Below are positions 24,423 through 62,276 of a DNA stretch of 64,000 nucleotides, piece after piece. The stretch spans positions 100,794-164,793 of the forward strand of contig NW_001799034.1 in the NCBI RefSeq assembly GCF_000165425.1, given 5' to 3'. Position 1 is the first letter of the stretch; each line of letters starts with the position of its first letter. Below the pieces are notes generated by a model, which saw only the letters and a list, made by a program, of their open reading frames with translations, did no database searches and was not told the origin of the DNA. The stretch comes from Paramecium tetraurelia. Lineage: Eukaryota; Ciliophora; Oligohymenophorea; Peniculida; Parameciidae. Made by a program: the position numbers and the translations under genes.

Positions 24423-25752
24423 TCATTCAAATGTTTTATTTTGGAAACTGAAAACCCTAACTTTGCTTTGTTATTAGGAGGTTTTGGACAGATCAGAGCT
24501 GATTCTTAAAGAACTTTATTTTTTGGACAGACTAGATTGGCTGTTGTACAATAATGGATGATTGAGTGTGGGAGTTTGATCCATTAATGAGCATTCCATT
24601 TAATTAGCGATGTTCTCTAATGAAACAATATTCAATTAAGCTATTTGTTGAAGAAACAGATTGATAGCAAAATCTAATTGAGTTTTAGTTTCCAAAGTTT
24701 TTTCAATTAAAAGCATCGTTTTCTGCATTCCAATTTAAGTGATAACAGTATTAAGTAAATTCTTGAAATTTTAGACTTGCTAGTCTTCAAGATTAGGCTG
24801 ATCTGCCAATAATTCTTTTAAATAGCAATTCTTAAGTTGTTCATTTAACAGTTCCTATAGTTGATATATAAAGTACTTCATCTTAGATAAATCCGATGTA
24901 GACGATTTAGCATAAAGGGAGACCACCAACATTGATTTTCTAGATTTCGATTTATCTGAAAATATGATTATGGTTATGTGAAAAGGGACTCAGGAAAGCA
25001 CATAAATCATTAGTCTAAATTTTGGATGGTAGGACGATAACGATGTTTTCTGATAGTTCCAACGCTTTTTATAAGTAATTCTTGAGATTTGAATCTAGGA
25101 GGAAGGAGTTGAGAAATTGATATTGTATTATGATTGCATCTGCCTTTTCTTGTCTTTCGAAAAAGGAAGTCAAATATATGTTCTACACTTGCGTTGAGTA
25201 ATAGTGAAATTATTAAATATTATATTTGGCATTGTCATTTTCATCAATGGAGTAGGAATCCACTTACGCAGCATTTGATTAAGCGATTTCAATGGACAAG
25301 GTTCCAGGCCCAGTTATTGCATCTACAATTAGGTTTTTGGTGAATTAAGTTATTCGTTTAGCCAAATATTATGTAACACAAAAAGGAAGAACCGATATCG
25401 ATTATTCATGGGTTATTATTAATTCGTGCATGTAGGGGAAAATGTAAGGCATCAGTTCTTTCAGTTGTGCAGGATTGAGCGAGGATCTGTCAATGAATAT
25501 AGAATGCACATCTTTGGAAATGCTTTTAATTTTTTGGCCTGACTTTTTCAGGAGGAAATTGTGTAAGGTTACCTTGGCTGGAGACAAAGAATTTTGGAGG
25601 CCGTGGAAAGCAAAGGGCGATTGATATTTCTCATTTGTGATGAGAGGTTGGGTTTATTATTTTTATTTTTTGCCAAAGCAACAGTTAATTTTCTGGAGAA
25701 AGTTTTAACAACACGATAACTTGGCTTATTTATTTTTGTTATTATTGTTCAT
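24423..25752 (-). CDS. TGS1-like methyltransferase fold lacking catalytic motif (probable pseudoenzyme)
   Basis: ATG 25752 to TGA 24423, with one 22-nt intron (GTACTT...CTATAG); 436 codons, exact. Residues 90-330 follow trimethylguanosine synthase: a FCVTQYLAKRI helix, motif I-like LIVDAITGPGTLSIEIAQ, an acidic strand end (YSIDENDNAKYN), then IVIVLPSKI. Active TGS1 has a DxFxGxGGN loop and a PPWGG motif whose Trp stacks on the cap. Here the loop is DAITGPGTLS and the PPWGG position reads QYQF. I infer a fold that no longer methylates m7G caps, perhaps regulatory. The C-terminus is Gln/Leu-rich and unique. Its 3' end lies 20 bases from the bZIP stop. Confidence 0.7.
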
Positions 25753-26196: not shown

Positions 26197-28525
26197 TCAT
26201 TTCTCTGCTTTTGCGAAATGTTTTTGACATGAAATTAGTAAACAGAAACTGTAAATCAGATACGGAATCAAGGGACAAGCGTTGCTCTCCTCGGTGGCAC
26301 AAGCGTAAGTGTCTCCAGACACATACATCAAATAGTGATGATCCTTTCTATTATCCTGAACTACAAACTCAATTCAATGTCATACTTTCATTGTACACCC
26401 TTGAGTTTTCCAGAGTCGTGCCCTTGATCAGTCCAGTGTATTGAATCAGGAATGTGGCAATGCAAGCCCCGATCATAATGGCCACACTTCCAGCATGTCC
26501 CAAAATCGATCCAAACATCAATATCATTATTGTAACGAACAAAACATTATATGCAACATACAACATACTATGAGTGTACTTGAACTTGGTGAATTCAATT
26601 ATTCTTATATCTTTCAAGTAATTGAGTTTTCCTTCTGCCTCATCAGATGGTTGGAAAATGAACTATTTATTAAATTATCAATTACATAGCTTTTTGCAAC
26701 GTTGATAATTCCCCAAATGTTGATGCCTCTACATACAAACATTATACTGAAACCAATGAACAATCCCAAAAATCCTTCATTTTTTACAAACAATGAATTC
26801 AATGCAGTTGGATATTAATAGAGTTGAGCACCAATTATTCCAATGCATACCAGGAATGCTGTACCTGCATTAGTGGCTTTAAGGAAAACCATGTAATTCT
26901 TGGCTTCCCAATAGATCTAAAAGATTTTGCCTTGCACGTCTGATATGAAGTGAGCAAAACATGTTAATTTATAAGAATCGGAGGAATTGCAACCAATGAA
27001 GAATATGACTCCGTAGATGATAAATAAAGATATGTAACCAGAAGCTGCAAATAACAATCCAGCAAATCCTTCAATTGAATAGACTATTGATATCAATAGG
27101 AACATCAAGATAGTTGGAATAGCAGAAAATAAATCTCCCAAATAATTTGAGTAGATCAAATTCATTGGCAATATACGATCACTTGTTGCTAATCCCTATT
27201 TGATCATAATAATTTACCATATTTCTGACATTAGGGCATCCATGAGATGTGTACCATTCGAACAAACTGATATGAAGTACATTAAATATCAATCCTAACA
27301 AATAACACCAACAAGCATGCATATTTGATTTACCCTCAAAATCAATGTCCTTTGTATTTTCACCTTTGAGGGTAAACTTATCAATAAGAAATGAAAAAGG
27401 GAATGAAACATGAATAATGAACGAAATCAAAGCAGCAATAATGACTTACCATCTCACATTGAGGGCAGCAAATGACCCAGTCTCCTAGTCTGCACACATT
27501 GTTTTTAAAAAATAGCATACAATAGATCCTAAATATCCAATGCATACCAAATAGATTGGTCCCAAAATAAAAGCACTTCTGTTTTTGCTATCCAACACTT
27601 CAGGACTATTGATAACAATTTATGAAACAGCACAACATAAGAAAACCAGTACAAATCCTGTGTCGAGGAAGTTCACAATTGCATTTCCAGCTTATTAAGA
27701 TACCATGTATGCTAATCTAGTCAATTGTGAGATATTGTTATTGCCAACACTCAAATTTAAGTCAGCTCTTATTAAACCAAATGAAGCAGTCTTCATTGAT
27801 CTACACATCATAGATATACCCTCTCTATACACGAATCCTCCCAGTATCATTCCCATCAAGAATCCAATCATCAATATTGATACTTTCTCGTATTCTTCTT
27901 TCTTCATGTCTCCTCCCCAAGCAGCCACATTGAAGTAATACATTAAGACATACATGCCAAATAGCAAACTAAACAATAAACTCACTATTGCAAAACCACT
28001 TTAGTACATGTATCCGAAGCTCTCCTCCTTCGAAAATTGTGACTTTATAATTGCTACATATTTATACTTATATCAAAGCTCTTGTCAACGATTTACTATT
28101 TGTCGTAGTAACATAATATGCAAATAACATCACAGTCACAGCGCCTAAAATTGCATTGAACATAAATGAGAATGGATAGTCGATAAACCAAATATCCACA
28201 ACCAAAAAAAATAGAAATAAGAGTAGAATCATATACAAAAATTGTGCTAGCCACAATCCACCTATTGATGTTTCTATTAAATCCACAATTCCTGATAAAT
28301 ATTATGGTTCTATTGTTGGCCTATAAGAACTAGGCTAAATATCATCCACTCCTAAGAGCCCTCTCAGTTGATCACTTACAAAGTCTTATTCATCTTTATA
28401 TTGCACCGTAAAACCCTTTTAATAATGCTATCATTTCTTACTTATGCTATCAAATGCACAAAATACCAAACTATCCCCACTATACAGATTAAAATTATCA
28501 CTACTAGCGATCCTAACCAACCCAT
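26197..28525 (-). CDS. Membrane pyrophosphatase (V-PPase) homologue without catalytic motifs
   Basis: ATG 28525 to TGA 26197. Five introns of 26, 25, 22, 23 and 25 nt leave 736 codons, near the family's usual 750-770. About 14-16 hydrophobic helices follow the V-PPase order, with landmarks FNAILGAVTV...TTTNSKSLTRA, FLMGMILGGFVYREG, FEWYTSHGCPNVRNM, HFISDVQGKIF, ATNAGTAFLV and VSGDTYACATEE. In working enzymes these sites read DVGADLVGKVE, DNVGDNVGD, ISDNAGG and GDTIGDPLKDT and bind Mg-pyrophosphate. Here nearly all those aspartates are gone, so proton pumping by pyrophosphate hydrolysis is unlikely. The open frame and intact splice sites argue against a dead gene. I infer a membrane pseudoenzyme. 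Confidence 0.75.
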
Positions 28526-31170: not shown

Positions 31171-32888
31171 ATGGAGGATGTAACAATTTAAAATTCTCTA
31201 GGAATTAATTAGGTAATTAAAGAAACCCTTTGAAAAAAGAAGTGAGGATGATTTATATCCAATTGAGAGGATGGTTAGGAAGATCGAGTTCTTTCAAAAA
31301 TATTTTGCAGATCAAAGAGATCTGAATTTTAGTTATTACTTCGAACATGAATACGCAACTTAAAATACATCCATAATAAACATAGATTCAGTCGGAGACA
31401 AATTCTATATAATTCTTTAGGGACAGGTGGGCATATATTTTAAGCCTAATTTTATGGAGGACAAGGTGTCATCCACTAAGTTGTTGGAGAAGGTGAAAAT
31501 GAGATTTCGATAAGCAGTTAACAACAACAAGTTTAAGGATTACTAGATAAATAAGATATCGTCTCAACAATCGGATTTGGCTTTATTAAAAATCTTGTTA
31601 CCTGGGTAGTCATTTGGTGAAACTGCTTTAGTGCACAATAGACCCAGGGATTTCAAAGCAGTGGCATTATAACCATGTCATTTTGCCGTTTTAAGAAGAT
31701 AATACTTTAAGGAGGTGGTAAGGATTGGCTAGGAGAAATCTTCGATGAAGGAGATGGGGTTTTTTGCAAATTTGGAGATTTTTGAGGGATGGAATGTGAA
31801 TTCGATATACTAGGTTTACAAGGTGTTGGAATAGAGGAGTTATAGGATGGGAGATGTTGTGTATGCATCAGGGGAGAATGCAAATGCGATTTACTTGGTA
31901 AAGGAAGGAGCTGTGGATGTATGCAATGATATCATTTAAGTTGTAACAAGTATTTGTGGAGGAGAAGGAGGAGTTGGAGACGAGGTCGGCTTCTCCATTT
32001 ATGAAGTAGAGAGGGAAGAGTTTGTAGAGGAAGATTGCAACGTTGAGTAAACACCAGTTCTTGGGATTAGAAGATATTCACAGTTAAGAGCAGAAGCACA
32101 GATTCACTTGTGTTAGTTCTAGTTCAGACACAATCCTAATTATTATACCAGTGGAATTGTATATGAAGAAAATCTACAGTCAGCCTACTAGTCAATCGTA
32201 CGTTAAGGAGTTTATATAAGTTTAATGCAAGTACCAAGATCAACGAGTATTTATTGATATTAATCAAAAGAATTCCTAATTGTAAATAGCAATCAATTCC
32301 CAAAGACAGCAATAGTAACAGATCTTTGCGAGAATAAATTAATAATAAAATGCCGACATGTTGGAGTTTTTTTTTAATTTGGAAGCGAGATTTAAGACAC
32401 TCACACAAGAACCAATGAAGAGGTTGCCAAAAAGCCAGATTGGAGAGAGATCCCAAAATTACAGTGCTCATGAACAGTATGTAGACAGAAGGTGTTTTAC
32501 GAGAGCCAAGGACAGATCTTTATAGGGGAAGGTCCAGACACAGAGTTTATACTAAAATTAAGCATATAGATAAGTGATTCATGAATCAAGGGTAATCGAG
32601 AAGAATTTGCCAAATCTGACTTCGTTTATTGATAAGAATTCGTCTGGCTTGCATCACTCGAAATCAACTTAAGTTAAATACAGGAGGAGGAGTCCATAGA
32701 AACAATAGCAATTACAATTTCAGAATGTTTAAACTACGTTGAATGAAGAGGAATAATAATTAATATCAAATATTCTTTCGAAGAGAGCAATTCAACCTAG
32801 AAAACATACTTCTGTGAAACGAGTGAAGTCAACTGAGGATTATACACACAGAAGGACTTTAAAATTCCAGGATTAGCCAAAGATCTGA
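31171..32888 (+). CDS. Cyclic-nucleotide-binding domain protein, two CNBDs
   Basis: ATG 31171 to TGA 32886-32888; introns of 22 nt (after codon 3) and 22 nt (GTATGCAATG...TTTAAG) leave 558 codons. A first CNBD spans about residues 25-150. Its phosphate-binding cassette is FGETALVHNRPRDF, with the Glu and Arg that contact the ribose and phosphate of cAMP/cGMP. A second domain begins FFANLEIF...RMGDVVYASGENANAIYLV, but its cassette is replaced by a charged insert and looks unable to bind. The C-terminal 250 residues are Gln/Ser/Lys-rich and lack a kinase domain. It could be a PKA/PKG-like regulatory or sensor protein. Confidence 0.85.
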
Positions 32889-58068: not shown

Positions 58069-61000
58069 TCATTTAACAGATTCAAAAATTAAATGCGTAA
58101 CTCTTATGGAGCGTGTCTGCTTCTACTTATATTAAAGGCATCTATGTTTAATTTTTTAAATTATCAAAATTATCTATTTAATGAAAATTCCCAATAAACC
58201 AGATATCAGTACATATATTTAAGCAAAGCCTAGTAATATCTTATTTTCATCGCTAATCAAATAATTATAATCTTCTAAATGTAATATTGACGTCAGATTA
58301 AAGATTATGATTGATGTTTCCAATAGGATAATTTGGAATTTATCCAATTTCTCCAAATTGAATTTTACAAAAGCTAAAAATAATAAGTAAATCACATTTG
58401 TTGTGCTTAACATTAATAATTGAATTAAAGAATGATTTTGAAAACAAATTAAGAAGTAGCAAAAAAAAAACTGTTTAAGTAGGTAAATTGCCTTGAACCT
58501 TTTATTCAAATCAGAGTTTATTCTTGATAAGCCTCCTTTTAATGATGAGATAACAAATTTTACTGTAGCAAGCAAAGTCATATACGATAAGACATTTTAT
58601 ATTCGAGAAATAGTATCAAAATTTGATGTGGATTCTAAATATAAAAATGTTTTAAATAATATGTCCCAAGCATTTGCTAATAGCAAACTTTCTATTCCAT
58701 CCTGGTTAAATTAATAGACAAAAACTAAGATATAATGGAAAAAGCCAAATAACCAATTGAATAATTTAGGGAGTACCTTGGATTGTATATTTCTTAATTT
58801 GAAAACTAACAAATTTTAAATCTGAATTTTATAAACTAATCTAAAACTGACTTAACCGATGGCTTTCAATATAATTACAAATATAAAGGTTGAAAAACTT
58901 TAAACGACAAAAAATTGCAGATTAGTTATTAAATGGGCATTAAGATTGTAAAACCTTAATTTAGCATATGACTCAATAAAGTCGGAATAGAGAAATATTT
59001 AATAAAATTAACCTATTTTTAGAAATTCTAAAACTGGAATAATGCTTATTAAATTAGTGGCTTCAAAAAAAAGGTAAAGATTTTCAGGGTAGATAATATT
59101 TGCATACTTTAAATACGATTAATACTGTAGGCTGTCCAATATTTCTACAAAAATTTGGAAATTTCCAGAAATTAACATGATAACACTACCAATTCCTTAA
59201 GCCATAATCATAGCTTCTTAATATTTGGTGAGTTGCCTAGTTTTTTCAACATCGGATTAACTCAGCTTAGTAAATTATTTGAGTAATAATTATTCAGATG
59301 GATTTAGTAATTCCAAATTATATTAATTAAACGCCACATTCATTAGAGTTAATTATAATCTTGTGAGACTACTATTATTTGATGTTAAGAACTCTAATTT
59401 TACTTGAAATTAATAGTTAAGAATTTAATTTATAACTGGTTAGAAGTTCGATTCTAGATTTATTGCATAATCTTCAGGATTTATTTCATCAACACTGAAA
59501 TCAAAAAGAGATTATAAATCATAACTATCCTTAAAAAAGATTGCTTAGGAAAATGATATCTCAATATAATATTTATTATATGTTTAGTTTAAGAATTTCA
59601 CTATCATATAAGGAGACTCAGAGTATTCACATTCTGAGTAACTATTGTTTTTGTCTTAACATTTATAATCAATTTCAATTTTACAATTTGAAGAACAACC
59701 GTCCACATCATTAAGATTGCCATCGTCACATTATTCATCGTAAGATTTAATTCCACTTCCACAGTCATTCTAACAAATATTTTACTCAAATTAAAAATAT
59801 TGTTAGCACTCTTAACAAATTCCTTCATCGCAATCTATGCAATATTAAGAACAAGAATATTGGCAATTATAGCATCCATCAAATTAAATGTTATTTCCAT
59901 CATCGCATTATTCTGTTTATTATATTATACCATCACCACAGATTGGAAGGCATATCCCATCTTTATTGGTTTCTCCAGTTGGACAATTATCATAACAAGT
60001 ACCATCAATACAATTATTGCATTCAGTTAAACAAGATAGCTAGCATTTATGATTTATCTCAATAAAAGGCCATAAACAAAGAAAACATCTTTTTGAATCA
60101 ATACAAAATTCACAATTTTCAGGGCAAGCAAATCTACAATTTATACAATCATCTAAATTTGAATCACATTCTTCTTATGATATAATTGCTACTTAATTAT
60201 CCCCACAAATTTATTGGCATGATCCGTTAATAAGCGACCAACCTCCTATGCAAGAAAAACAATATGAATTCTAACATTAAAGACATTAAATCTGACAACT
60301 ACCATTACATTTATAGCATCCTATTTCAATTAAACTAATATGATGTTCATCTTTGAATACTAGTATTCCTTTGGTAATCTAAGATATACATTAGTTCTTT
60401 AATAGAAAATAATCAACCAAGCATTTTTTACATTTACCGTATTCGCAAATTTCGCAATATTAAGGACATTACAATATTTTACTGTCATTTTCAACCTATG
60501 ATATTCCAAGATTACATTGGATGTCATTATCCTCACAACAACTGACATTGTTCTTCTCAGTAATTTAATTTTGATTTACGTTTGAAGTAATACAATTAAG
60601 AAATCTAAAGTTAGTTTTAATCTCCAAACATTTACCACTTATTAATTAATATGTTGGGTTACAATACTAACAAACTCCAAAAATACATTCATAACAGTTT
60701 TATATACATTAAAAATAACAATTATTACATCCATCATTCGGAATAGTATTTCCATCGTCACATTCTTCATCCTATTGAATTATACCATCTCCGCATACTT
60801 TCTTTTCATTTTCCTCTTAAGCAAATGAAAATTAATTATAATCAACTTAACTTTGATCTAATGTAAATTCTCCATAATTTCGAATGCATATTCCATTTGA
60901 GTAATAATATCCTGAATTGCACATCTAACATTAACCAAATTGACATTTTTGGCAGTTCACAGGACATGCAAACTTACATTCATGACACCCATCAAAAGGA

Positions 61001-62276
61001 AAATTATTGCCATCATCACATTGCTCATTTCCTGTGATTAATTTATCTCCACAAGAAGGGTCGCAACTTTTATTTAAAGCATTATAATCCCATCTAGTAT
61101 CACACATCAGACATTCTCCTCTAACACAAAATGTACATCCTTCCAAACAAGATTCTTACTTAGCAAAACAACCATCAAACGGTGCTAAATTGTCATCAAC
61201 ACATGAGATTAAGTTTATTGGCCCTCGTAGAATTACAGACAATTCACGAATACATACAGTGCCATCTACACTATATATTTCTAATTTAATTTGATTTCTA
61301 GTATCGTCTATTGTCCAAGTTCTATAATCCACTTACTTTTTATCATTAATTAGTCCATACTTCCATTCATCATTTATGTAAACTCTAACAATTATAGGCA
61401 AGGCTGAAATATATTCAATTCTAAATTGTATTATTAAAGAAATATGATCTGGCAGTGTAAGATAAGTTATTGCAGAATCCCATTTATTTAATACAAGCAT
61501 TTTTAGTTAAACTATAATTACTCACACTATTACAATCATTTGTCATTTATGTAAAAGACGGAAATTTATTCTTTATCCAACCTTCAAGCCCATTATCAAG
61601 GTTTTTCAGTTGAAAAAAAGACTTCCACAATATCCACATCGTGCAATCATTCGTAGAATCTAAGCAAAATTGACATCCTGACTGACATTCATTTAATGTT
61701 ATAGAGAAATCAGTAAGTCCCCAATAGTTCTTAATATTTTAAAATAACACATACAGCGCTTGAACAATCAGAGCGTATTTCAACAATAATAGAATTTAAT
61801 GTATGCAAAAGCACATTACTATTTAATGAAGAACTAAAGTCTGAGCCAGTACCTGCACATAAATTCGATCCTATATTATCTGGATAATACCAAGATTTTG
61901 TCCATTAATCTATCACAATATAAAAGTACTGAGAAGTTGGCCAATCATCAATTCTAAAGATATTTTTTATATTAAACTTCCAAAAATTGAAATCTATGCT
62001 CACACCATAATGAGGTGGCAGTGAGAAATAATTCATTATTGCTGTTTGTTATGACGAATAACATCCGAAGATCTGGTATCCCCCAAACATTAGGTTTCCT
62101 CCACAACTGTATGTATGAACAGTGGCCCCATTATAAGGGTTTTTAATTAACCACCCTAAATGAATATGATAATATCTACCTTCGTCACCAGATATTGATG
62201 ATGTAACAAAATGTTAAATATAATATGCTTCAACAATTATTCCTAAAATCTGAAAATGGAAGAACCGAACAAACAT
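58069..62276 (-). CDS. Large cysteine-rich receptor-like membrane protein with CDDGN repeats
   Basis: ATG 62276 to TGA 58069, roughly 1,370 residues. A 25-nt intron (GTATGTG...ATTAAG) lies near 61740; other introns remain unfixed. A signal-like start (HFQILGIIVEAYY) is followed by an extracellular region with a beta-rich domain (HLGWLIKNPYNGATVH). Many Cys modules follow, several with EECDDGN or EQCDDGN...DGC, as in the DUF4215-type repeat. After about residue 900 come several hydrophobic segments (FVIILKAIGQVSF, WLFGFFHYILVFV, LLMLSTTNVIYLLFLAFV, IYVLISGLLGIFI). The protein ends in a Lys/Arg/Gln-rich cytoplasmic tail. Surface sensing or adhesion is likely. Confidence 0.75.

Follow-up and report, generated by a model that had tools for sequence, protein, structure and literature searches.

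The closest described relatives of the protein considered here are the membrane-bound H+-pyrophosphatases of type I (V-PPases, PF03030), with VrPPase (PDB 4a01) as the reference. For ciliates, the available part of one V-PPase study (PMC8055999) describes two isoenzymes with activity; the open-access literature, with most subscription papers outside its coverage, yielded nothing relevant on membrane pyrophosphatase pseudoenzymes or ciliate paralogues. The gene in question, labelled C81, lies on the minus strand of a 64,000-nucleotide stretch of the Paramecium tetraurelia genome (contig NW_001799034.1, positions 100,794 to 164,793; hereafter the window, with coordinates given within it). An original prediction, made from the letters of that stretch, described it as a full-length V-PPase homologue with its pyrophosphate site erased, maintained as a membrane pseudoenzyme. 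Pseudoenzymes are catalytically dead, maintained paralogues; in general they combine loss of catalytic residues with purifying selection, as the window gene does. As aligned here, the window protein has full-length homology to V-PPases and has lost most of its Mg-pyrophosphate ligands and most of the polar residues of the ion gate. By descent it thus belongs to the V-PPase superfamily, but it falls outside the family by its active-site and gate criteria.

The window protein shares with VrPPase the E[YW]xTS segment, R242, K541 and D723 (VrPPase numbering is used for canonical positions throughout). It differs in that 15 of the 16 hydrolytic-centre residues and most gate residues are replaced, and identity in the profile alignment is 14%. 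Ten canonical V-PPases of the same genome belong to the same family as the window gene and show similar ratios of nonsynonymous to synonymous substitution (dN/dS) for close pairs; unlike the clade of five genes described below, they have all 16 hydrolytic-centre residues and neither of two new signatures.

A search of the genome with the window protein recovered the gene itself and four relatives, C54 (93-95% identity in separate pieces, 97% for the whole spliced protein), C28 (57-69%), C87 (27-30%) and C180 (26-28%). It also weakly matched canonical C31 and C170 (E 2.5e-6 and 3.8e-6), neither of which was matched in a one-exon search. Searching the whole genome with PF03030 returned the ten canonical genes (C202, C196, C4, C39, C31, C170, C73, C198, C179 and C75); the window gene was not among the matches. 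Searched singly, the window protein matched nothing in Pfam up to E 1 or in the PDB up to E 10. With the profile built from the ten canonical paralogues (database size 40,000), the family members reach 9e-16 (C180), 2e-9 (C87), 3e-6 (C28), 1e-3 (C81) and 2e-3 (C54), and PF03030 itself is matched by two of four members (best 5.8e-12), the window protein not being one of them. Comparison of the five-member profile with the canonical one gives an alignment of 575 columns at a probability of 99.2; its score of 161 is far above those of 21 scrambled controls (one reversed, twenty column-shuffled; maximum 26.3). A four-member profile run against 177,635 PDB sequences gave nine matches at E<=10 (best 1.1e-20), all titled proton pyrophosphatase or vacuolar membrane proton pump. 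On these comparisons the descent of the family from V-PPases is secure, though not through the window protein by itself, and the profile search that the original prediction had proposed as a check succeeds for the family profile and fails for the single protein.

The predicted full-length homology is thus supported, and the window protein keeps VrPPase-like length and segment order. Two of the landmarks named in the prediction, a YTS..PVR-like segment (FEWYTSHGCPNVRN) and a GDT segment (GDTYACATEES), were located correctly. Hydropathy gives 19 raw peaks, about 15 after overlaps are merged by eye, for a V-PPase reference of 16 transmembrane helices arranged as two rings. The segments on which the comparison leans are:

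27239..27259, minus strand: residues 406-412, EWYTSHG, counterpart of the canonical E[YW]xTS segment
27662..27826, minus strand: residues 217-271, counterpart of helices 5-6 (canonical FGRVGGGIYTKAADVGAD...DNVGDNVGD...)
26965..26985, minus strand: residues 490-496, SSDSYKL, part of the segment that actually corresponds to ISDNAGG(I); D507 becomes S491 and G511 becomes K495 (Lys in all five members)
26863..26910, minus strand: residues 515-530, WEAKNYMVFLKATNAG, a family signature in place of AAGNTTAAIGKGFAIG; N534 becomes K518 and K541 is kept as K525
26284..26316, minus strand: residues 697-707, GDTYACATEES; D723 is kept as D698, D727 becomes C702 and K730-D731 become E705-E706

The hydrolytic centre was defined as 16 positions (12 acids, three Lys and one Asn), with residue roles taken from the available parts of PMC6882861 and PMC5150537; N12.53, as printed in the accessible text of PMC6882861, was taken as N534, which is 12.43 by that paper's own table. 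All 16 residues are present in each of the ten canonical paralogues. They are also invariant in all 36 prokaryotic V-PPases used, with a bias at K250, D691 and K694, since these loci were found via patterns that include them. In the window protein and in C54 a single position, D723, is kept; C28 keeps K694 and D723, and C87 and C180 each keep D257 and D723. These counts of one or two per member hold in two alignments. In all five members K250 is replaced by Arg, N534 by Lys or Arg, and K730 and D731 by Glu. The net charge at the 16 positions, -9 in the canonical proteins, is 0 in C81, C54, C28 and C87 and -3 in C180 in both alignments.

In the window protein, nine of the 12 acids are non-acidic. 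Along helices 5 and 6, R242 is kept as R217, while K250, D253 and D257 become R225, K228 and F232, and E268/D269 become V243/G244. Residues 239-270 contain no acidic residue, against six in VrPPase 264-293, so that the predicted replacement of DNVGDNVGD by a neutral segment holds in substance. Intact DxxxDxxxD motifs elsewhere in the protein, which the prediction had named as evidence against itself, were looked for and occur in none of the five members; each of 11 canonical proteins (VrPPase and the ten paralogues) has two copies. The exchange of GDTIGDPLKDT for GDTYACATEES was also read correctly. The prediction was wrong in setting ISDVQGK against ISDNAGG: the ungapped alignment places NSSDSYK (489-495) there, and ISDVQGK, at residues 503-509, lies 14 residues downstream and resembles ISDNAGG by coincidence. 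The correction leaves the loss of D507 unchanged, the residue being Ser in the window protein.

With one of 16 positions left, the proposed erasure of the catalytic site is well supported for the window protein, and the loss extends beyond what was claimed, being common to all five paralogues. Judged from the aligned residues, the Mg-pyrophosphate site of membrane-bound pyrophosphatases is absent from every member. Since the lost acids include D6.43, which helps to activate water, and D16.39 is Glu, hydrolysis of pyrophosphate by the window protein is very unlikely.

The ion gate was compared at seven positions (S5.43, D6.50, 6.53, S6.54, E6.57, N/D16.46 and K16.50). Two registers are possible for helix 6, in which D294 corresponds either to D271 (16-sequence alignment) or to N268 (profile-profile and 52-sequence alignments), and whether an acid appears to be left in the helix 6 gate depends on the alignment. 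In the D271 register the seven residues, SDGSENK in VrPPase, become IDFVFII in the window protein, and in every member six of the seven positions are occupied by hydrophobic residues, Cys or Pro. Four positions, S5.43, E6.57, N16.46 and K16.50 (S235, E301, N738 and K742), are lost in both registers, with hydrophobic residues, Cys or Pro in every member. As far as these positions tell, the V-PPase gate in its known form is not present in the window protein, and, the gate Lys and Glu being lost, proton pumping by the V-PPase cycle is unlikely.

Selection constrains the window gene as much as it does the canonical copies. The prediction had proposed a dN/dS check against orthologues in related Paramecium species; computed between paralogues of one genome, dN/dS indicates strong purifying selection, and the claim of a maintained gene is upheld in that form. 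For C81 and C54, dS is 0.49, dN 0.016 and dN/dS 0.032 (bootstrap 0.019-0.049); among the canonical genes, the five closest pairs have ratios of 0.011, 0.020, 0.038, 0.040 and 0.042. Ratios for C81-C28 and deeper pairs were set aside because dS is saturated or nearly so. Invariant columns number 78 among four members and 76 among five (16-sequence alignment). Among the 180 columns invariant in VrPPase and the ten paralogues, 17 are kept by all five members, 48 by some and 115 by none.

The five genes also share residues of their own. An identical new residue is found in all five at 18 columns of the 16-sequence alignment and 19 of the 52-sequence alignment, with 16 common to both: G246S, K250R, G255A, A483L, G511K, I512L, A531W, G533A, T536Y, M642V, G688T, I697N, K730E, D731E, T732S and L740Y. 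With helix borders set by hand, all but M642V (15 of 16) fall within helices 5, 11, 12, 15 and 16 or at their ends, and these helices are part of the inner ring that forms the pocket; the new residues are fixed though the members are only 24-28% identical. The signatures WxA[KR]NYxx[FYW]LKxTNAG and GDx6EES occur in five of five family members and in none of the ten canonical proteins. Among the three deepest members, 23 of 253 columns of the outer helices are identical, against 42 of 216 for the inner ring.

The gene model underlying these comparisons runs from an ATG at 28525 to a TGA at 26199-26197 on the minus strand (28525..26197), with 735 codons read in ciliate code 6, in which TAA and TAG encode Gln. 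Its parts are:

28525-28442, 28415-28068, 28042-27218, 27195-26686, 26662-26386 and 26360-26197, minus strand: the six exons of the whole gene
28416..28441, minus strand: intron 1, 26 nucleotides, GTA..AAG; position also in C54, C28 and C180
28043..28067, minus strand: intron 2, 25 nucleotides, GTA..AAG; the C54 and C28 introns here likewise end in AAG
27196..27217, minus strand: intron 3, 22 nucleotides, GTA..TAG; position also in C54, C28 and C87
26663..26685, minus strand: intron 4, 23 nucleotides, GTA..TAG; position also in C54 and C28
26361..26385, minus strand: intron 5, 25 nucleotides, GTA..TAG; position and phase common to all five family members

All five intron positions and phases are identical in the window gene, C54 and C28, which argues that the model is sound and not a chance open frame; the clean 735-residue frame with five short introns (22-26 nucleotides) was thus read correctly at the outset. 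Intron 1 ends in TAG in C54 and C28, against AAG in the window gene. An alternative intron 1 (28466-28447) was rejected, as an in-frame TGA remains. At one intron (alignment column 717, phase 0), C180 agrees in position and phase with canonical C4, C39, C73 and C198; this could possibly be a trace of common origin, or chance.

The canonical gene models are bounded by homology and their N-termini are rough; none of the ten has lost any of the 16 counted sites. The C73 model contains a small spurious intron, and those of C179 and C75 retain a few intron residues. In C196, PF03030 matches fall in two abutting frames (207625-209016 and 209015-209698), which indicates a frame break near 209015 in an otherwise intact gene, either a sequencing error or the early decay of one duplicate; the model bridges it with a spurious intron, at the cost of about 15 residues.

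For the phylogeny, 36 of 80 prokaryotic loci were kept, hand-picked for spread of titles, and all 36 translated without a stop; the 80 had been found by sequence patterns surrounding K250 and D691-K694, which biases the set at these positions. The five genes form one clade (1.00 in FastTree, 100 by ultrafast bootstrap). FastTree places it beside eukaryotic type I pumps (0.94), and IQ-TREE within the type I genes of the ciliate, adjacent to C31 and C170 (59 and 63). Its stem branch is very long, 3.8 (FastTree) to 7.6 (IQ-TREE) substitutions per site, so that this placement is only a hint; the clade probably originated from a eukaryotic type I V-PPase. Scans with the family alignment gave no relatives among 52 pattern matches in prokaryotic genomes or nine in viral contigs.

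Our preferred reading, held tentatively and at somewhat less than even probability, is that the five genes encode non-hydrolysing descendants of V-PPases that serve as sensors or regulatory membrane proteins and not as pyrophosphate pumps. We infer from the alignments that they would neither hydrolyse pyrophosphate nor pump protons by the V-PPase cycle, and among the functions originally suggested for the window protein, 'regulatory' seems to fit best. The cytosolic pocket, formerly lined with acids for Mg ions, would be relined in the window protein by R225, K495, W515, K518, Y520, K525, D698, E705 and E706, and this roughly neutral lining is probably a binding site for some other small ligand or for a partner protein. 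The ion gate would have been dismantled while the pocket stays constrained, and ligand binding would shift the inner helices as in the pump, passing on a signal instead of an ion. The more specific proposal that an ion pump has turned receptor, its old pyrophosphate pocket sensing a different cytosolic ligand through the new basic and Glu-pair set, is possible but on the doubtful side.

Several observations weigh against the sensor or regulatory reading. D257 is retained in C87 and C180, and D731 and D691 are both Glu in the window protein, so that two acids remain there by exchange. The N268 register of helix 6 reads INDTVII, with Asn at D294, Asp at 6.53 (Glu in type II C202) and Thr at S298 (6.54); the Asn and Asp are present in all five members. 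A polar cation site may thus survive in that register, in place of a sealed gate, which lowers the odds of a sensor and raises those of a transporter. Helix borders were set by hand. In the inner helices, the three deepest members have identical columns more often in the cytosolic half than in the membrane half (29 of 113 against 15 of 106, p 0.04), but a second alignment gives 27 of 109 against 15 of 106 (p 0.06), and this contrast is sharper still in the canonical pumps (79 of 113 against 34 of 111), so that the pocket is seen to be constrained without a new kind of constraint. Structure prediction for exon 3, alone (predicted local distance difference test score, pLDDT, 51) or with 23 prokaryotic rows (pLDDT 66), gave models of which neither matched the PDB in Foldseek at E<=0.001. 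At E<=10 the pLDDT 66 model had one match, not a V-PPase, and the pLDDT 51 model had no V-PPase in the best 50 of 132 matches; with such low pLDDT and a fragment of 275 of 735 residues, this negative is given little weight.

It may be instead that the inner helices form a changed permeation path for another solute or ion, without pyrophosphate drive. The roughly 15 merged hydropathy peaks and the better conserved inner ring are consistent with such a transporter, as is the register that puts N268, D271 and Ser/Thr (Ile in C28) at gate positions 6.50, 6.53 and 6.54; the four gate positions lost in both alignments, and the six positions of the D271 register with hydrophobic residues, Cys or Pro, argue the other way, and we regard a transporter as unlikely, if less so than the explanations that follow. 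A dead protein in mixed dimers with an active V-PPase, tuning or silencing the pump, would draw on the ten canonical genes of the genome and on the description, in the available part of PMC6882861, of V-PPases as dimers with communicating subunits. At 17 dimer-interface columns (helices 10, 13 and 15; from the accessible parts of PMC6882861 and PMC5150537), the window protein matches any canonical paralogue at five, against 155 of 599 overall, and the other four members at three to seven; helix 10 has no identical column among 30 in C81, C87 and C180, and R13.62 is lost in four of five. The suggested dimerisation with an active copy thus finds no support, in a test that is weak because the interface residues were taken from other species and differ even between canonical paralogues, and such a subunit seems distinctly unlikely.

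Hydrolysis of another phosphate compound would make use of the Glu pair and basic residues conserved across the clade (R225, K518, which is Arg in C87, K525, D698, E705 and E706). Given the nine acids lost from the window protein, and that the two acids which activate water according to the available text of PMC5150537, D6.43 and D16.39, are Asn or unaligned and Glu, respectively, this changed chemistry is improbable. A decaying or relaxed gene copy might account for the very long stem branch, but the purifying selection between C81 and C54 refutes it, and C81, C54 and C28 have complete frames with identical intron positions and share the loss with the other two genes; we give decay scarcely any credence. 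An equally slight chance attaches to a purely compositional resemblance to V-PPases. The window protein alone finds no Pfam or PDB entry and reaches only E 1e-3 with the canonical profile, and the folded fragments match no V-PPase among the matches listed; nevertheless, the profile matches run collinearly along most of the length and far outscore the scrambled controls, and the window gene is linked to C87 (27% identity, E 5e-66) and, through C87 and C180, to the canonical profile (2e-9 and 9e-16).

Around the window gene, the C54 locus has collinear neighbour genes on both flanks, and at C28 the order is kept downstream only, with nothing found in the 3.9 kb upstream compared; C87 and C180 have no neighbours in common with the window locus in the 5-5.5 kb compared. 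The order kept at the window gene, C54 and C28 loci is of the kind produced by whole-genome duplication in Paramecium. Just downstream of the window gene, a 303-residue open frame in code 6 (24844-25752, minus strand), without a Pfam match at 1e-5, has no more than a patchy match at the C54 locus, while the flanking neighbours match well; the interval may be fast-evolving or contain no gene. A few kilobases upstream, an open frame on the plus strand (31178-32254) carries a cyclic-nucleotide-binding domain (E 3.7e-19). Farther off, a 1143-residue open frame (58072-61500, minus strand) has three DUF4215 stretches (E 4.7e-33), and we would guess it to encode a surface or secreted protein.

A single reaction seems to define the membrane pyrophosphatases, with the 16 hydrolytic-centre positions invariant in 36 of 36 prokaryotic sequences and ten of ten Paramecium paralogues. 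A clade that drops this chemistry yet keeps the scaffold under strong selection makes non-pump uses of the fold testable, and offers a natural comparison of residues that serve the fold with those that serve catalysis. If the receptor proposal is true, it would be, to our knowledge, the first non-pump branch of the V-PPase family. The clade is also a caution that a V-PPase-like profile match in a ciliate is not by itself proof of a proton pump.
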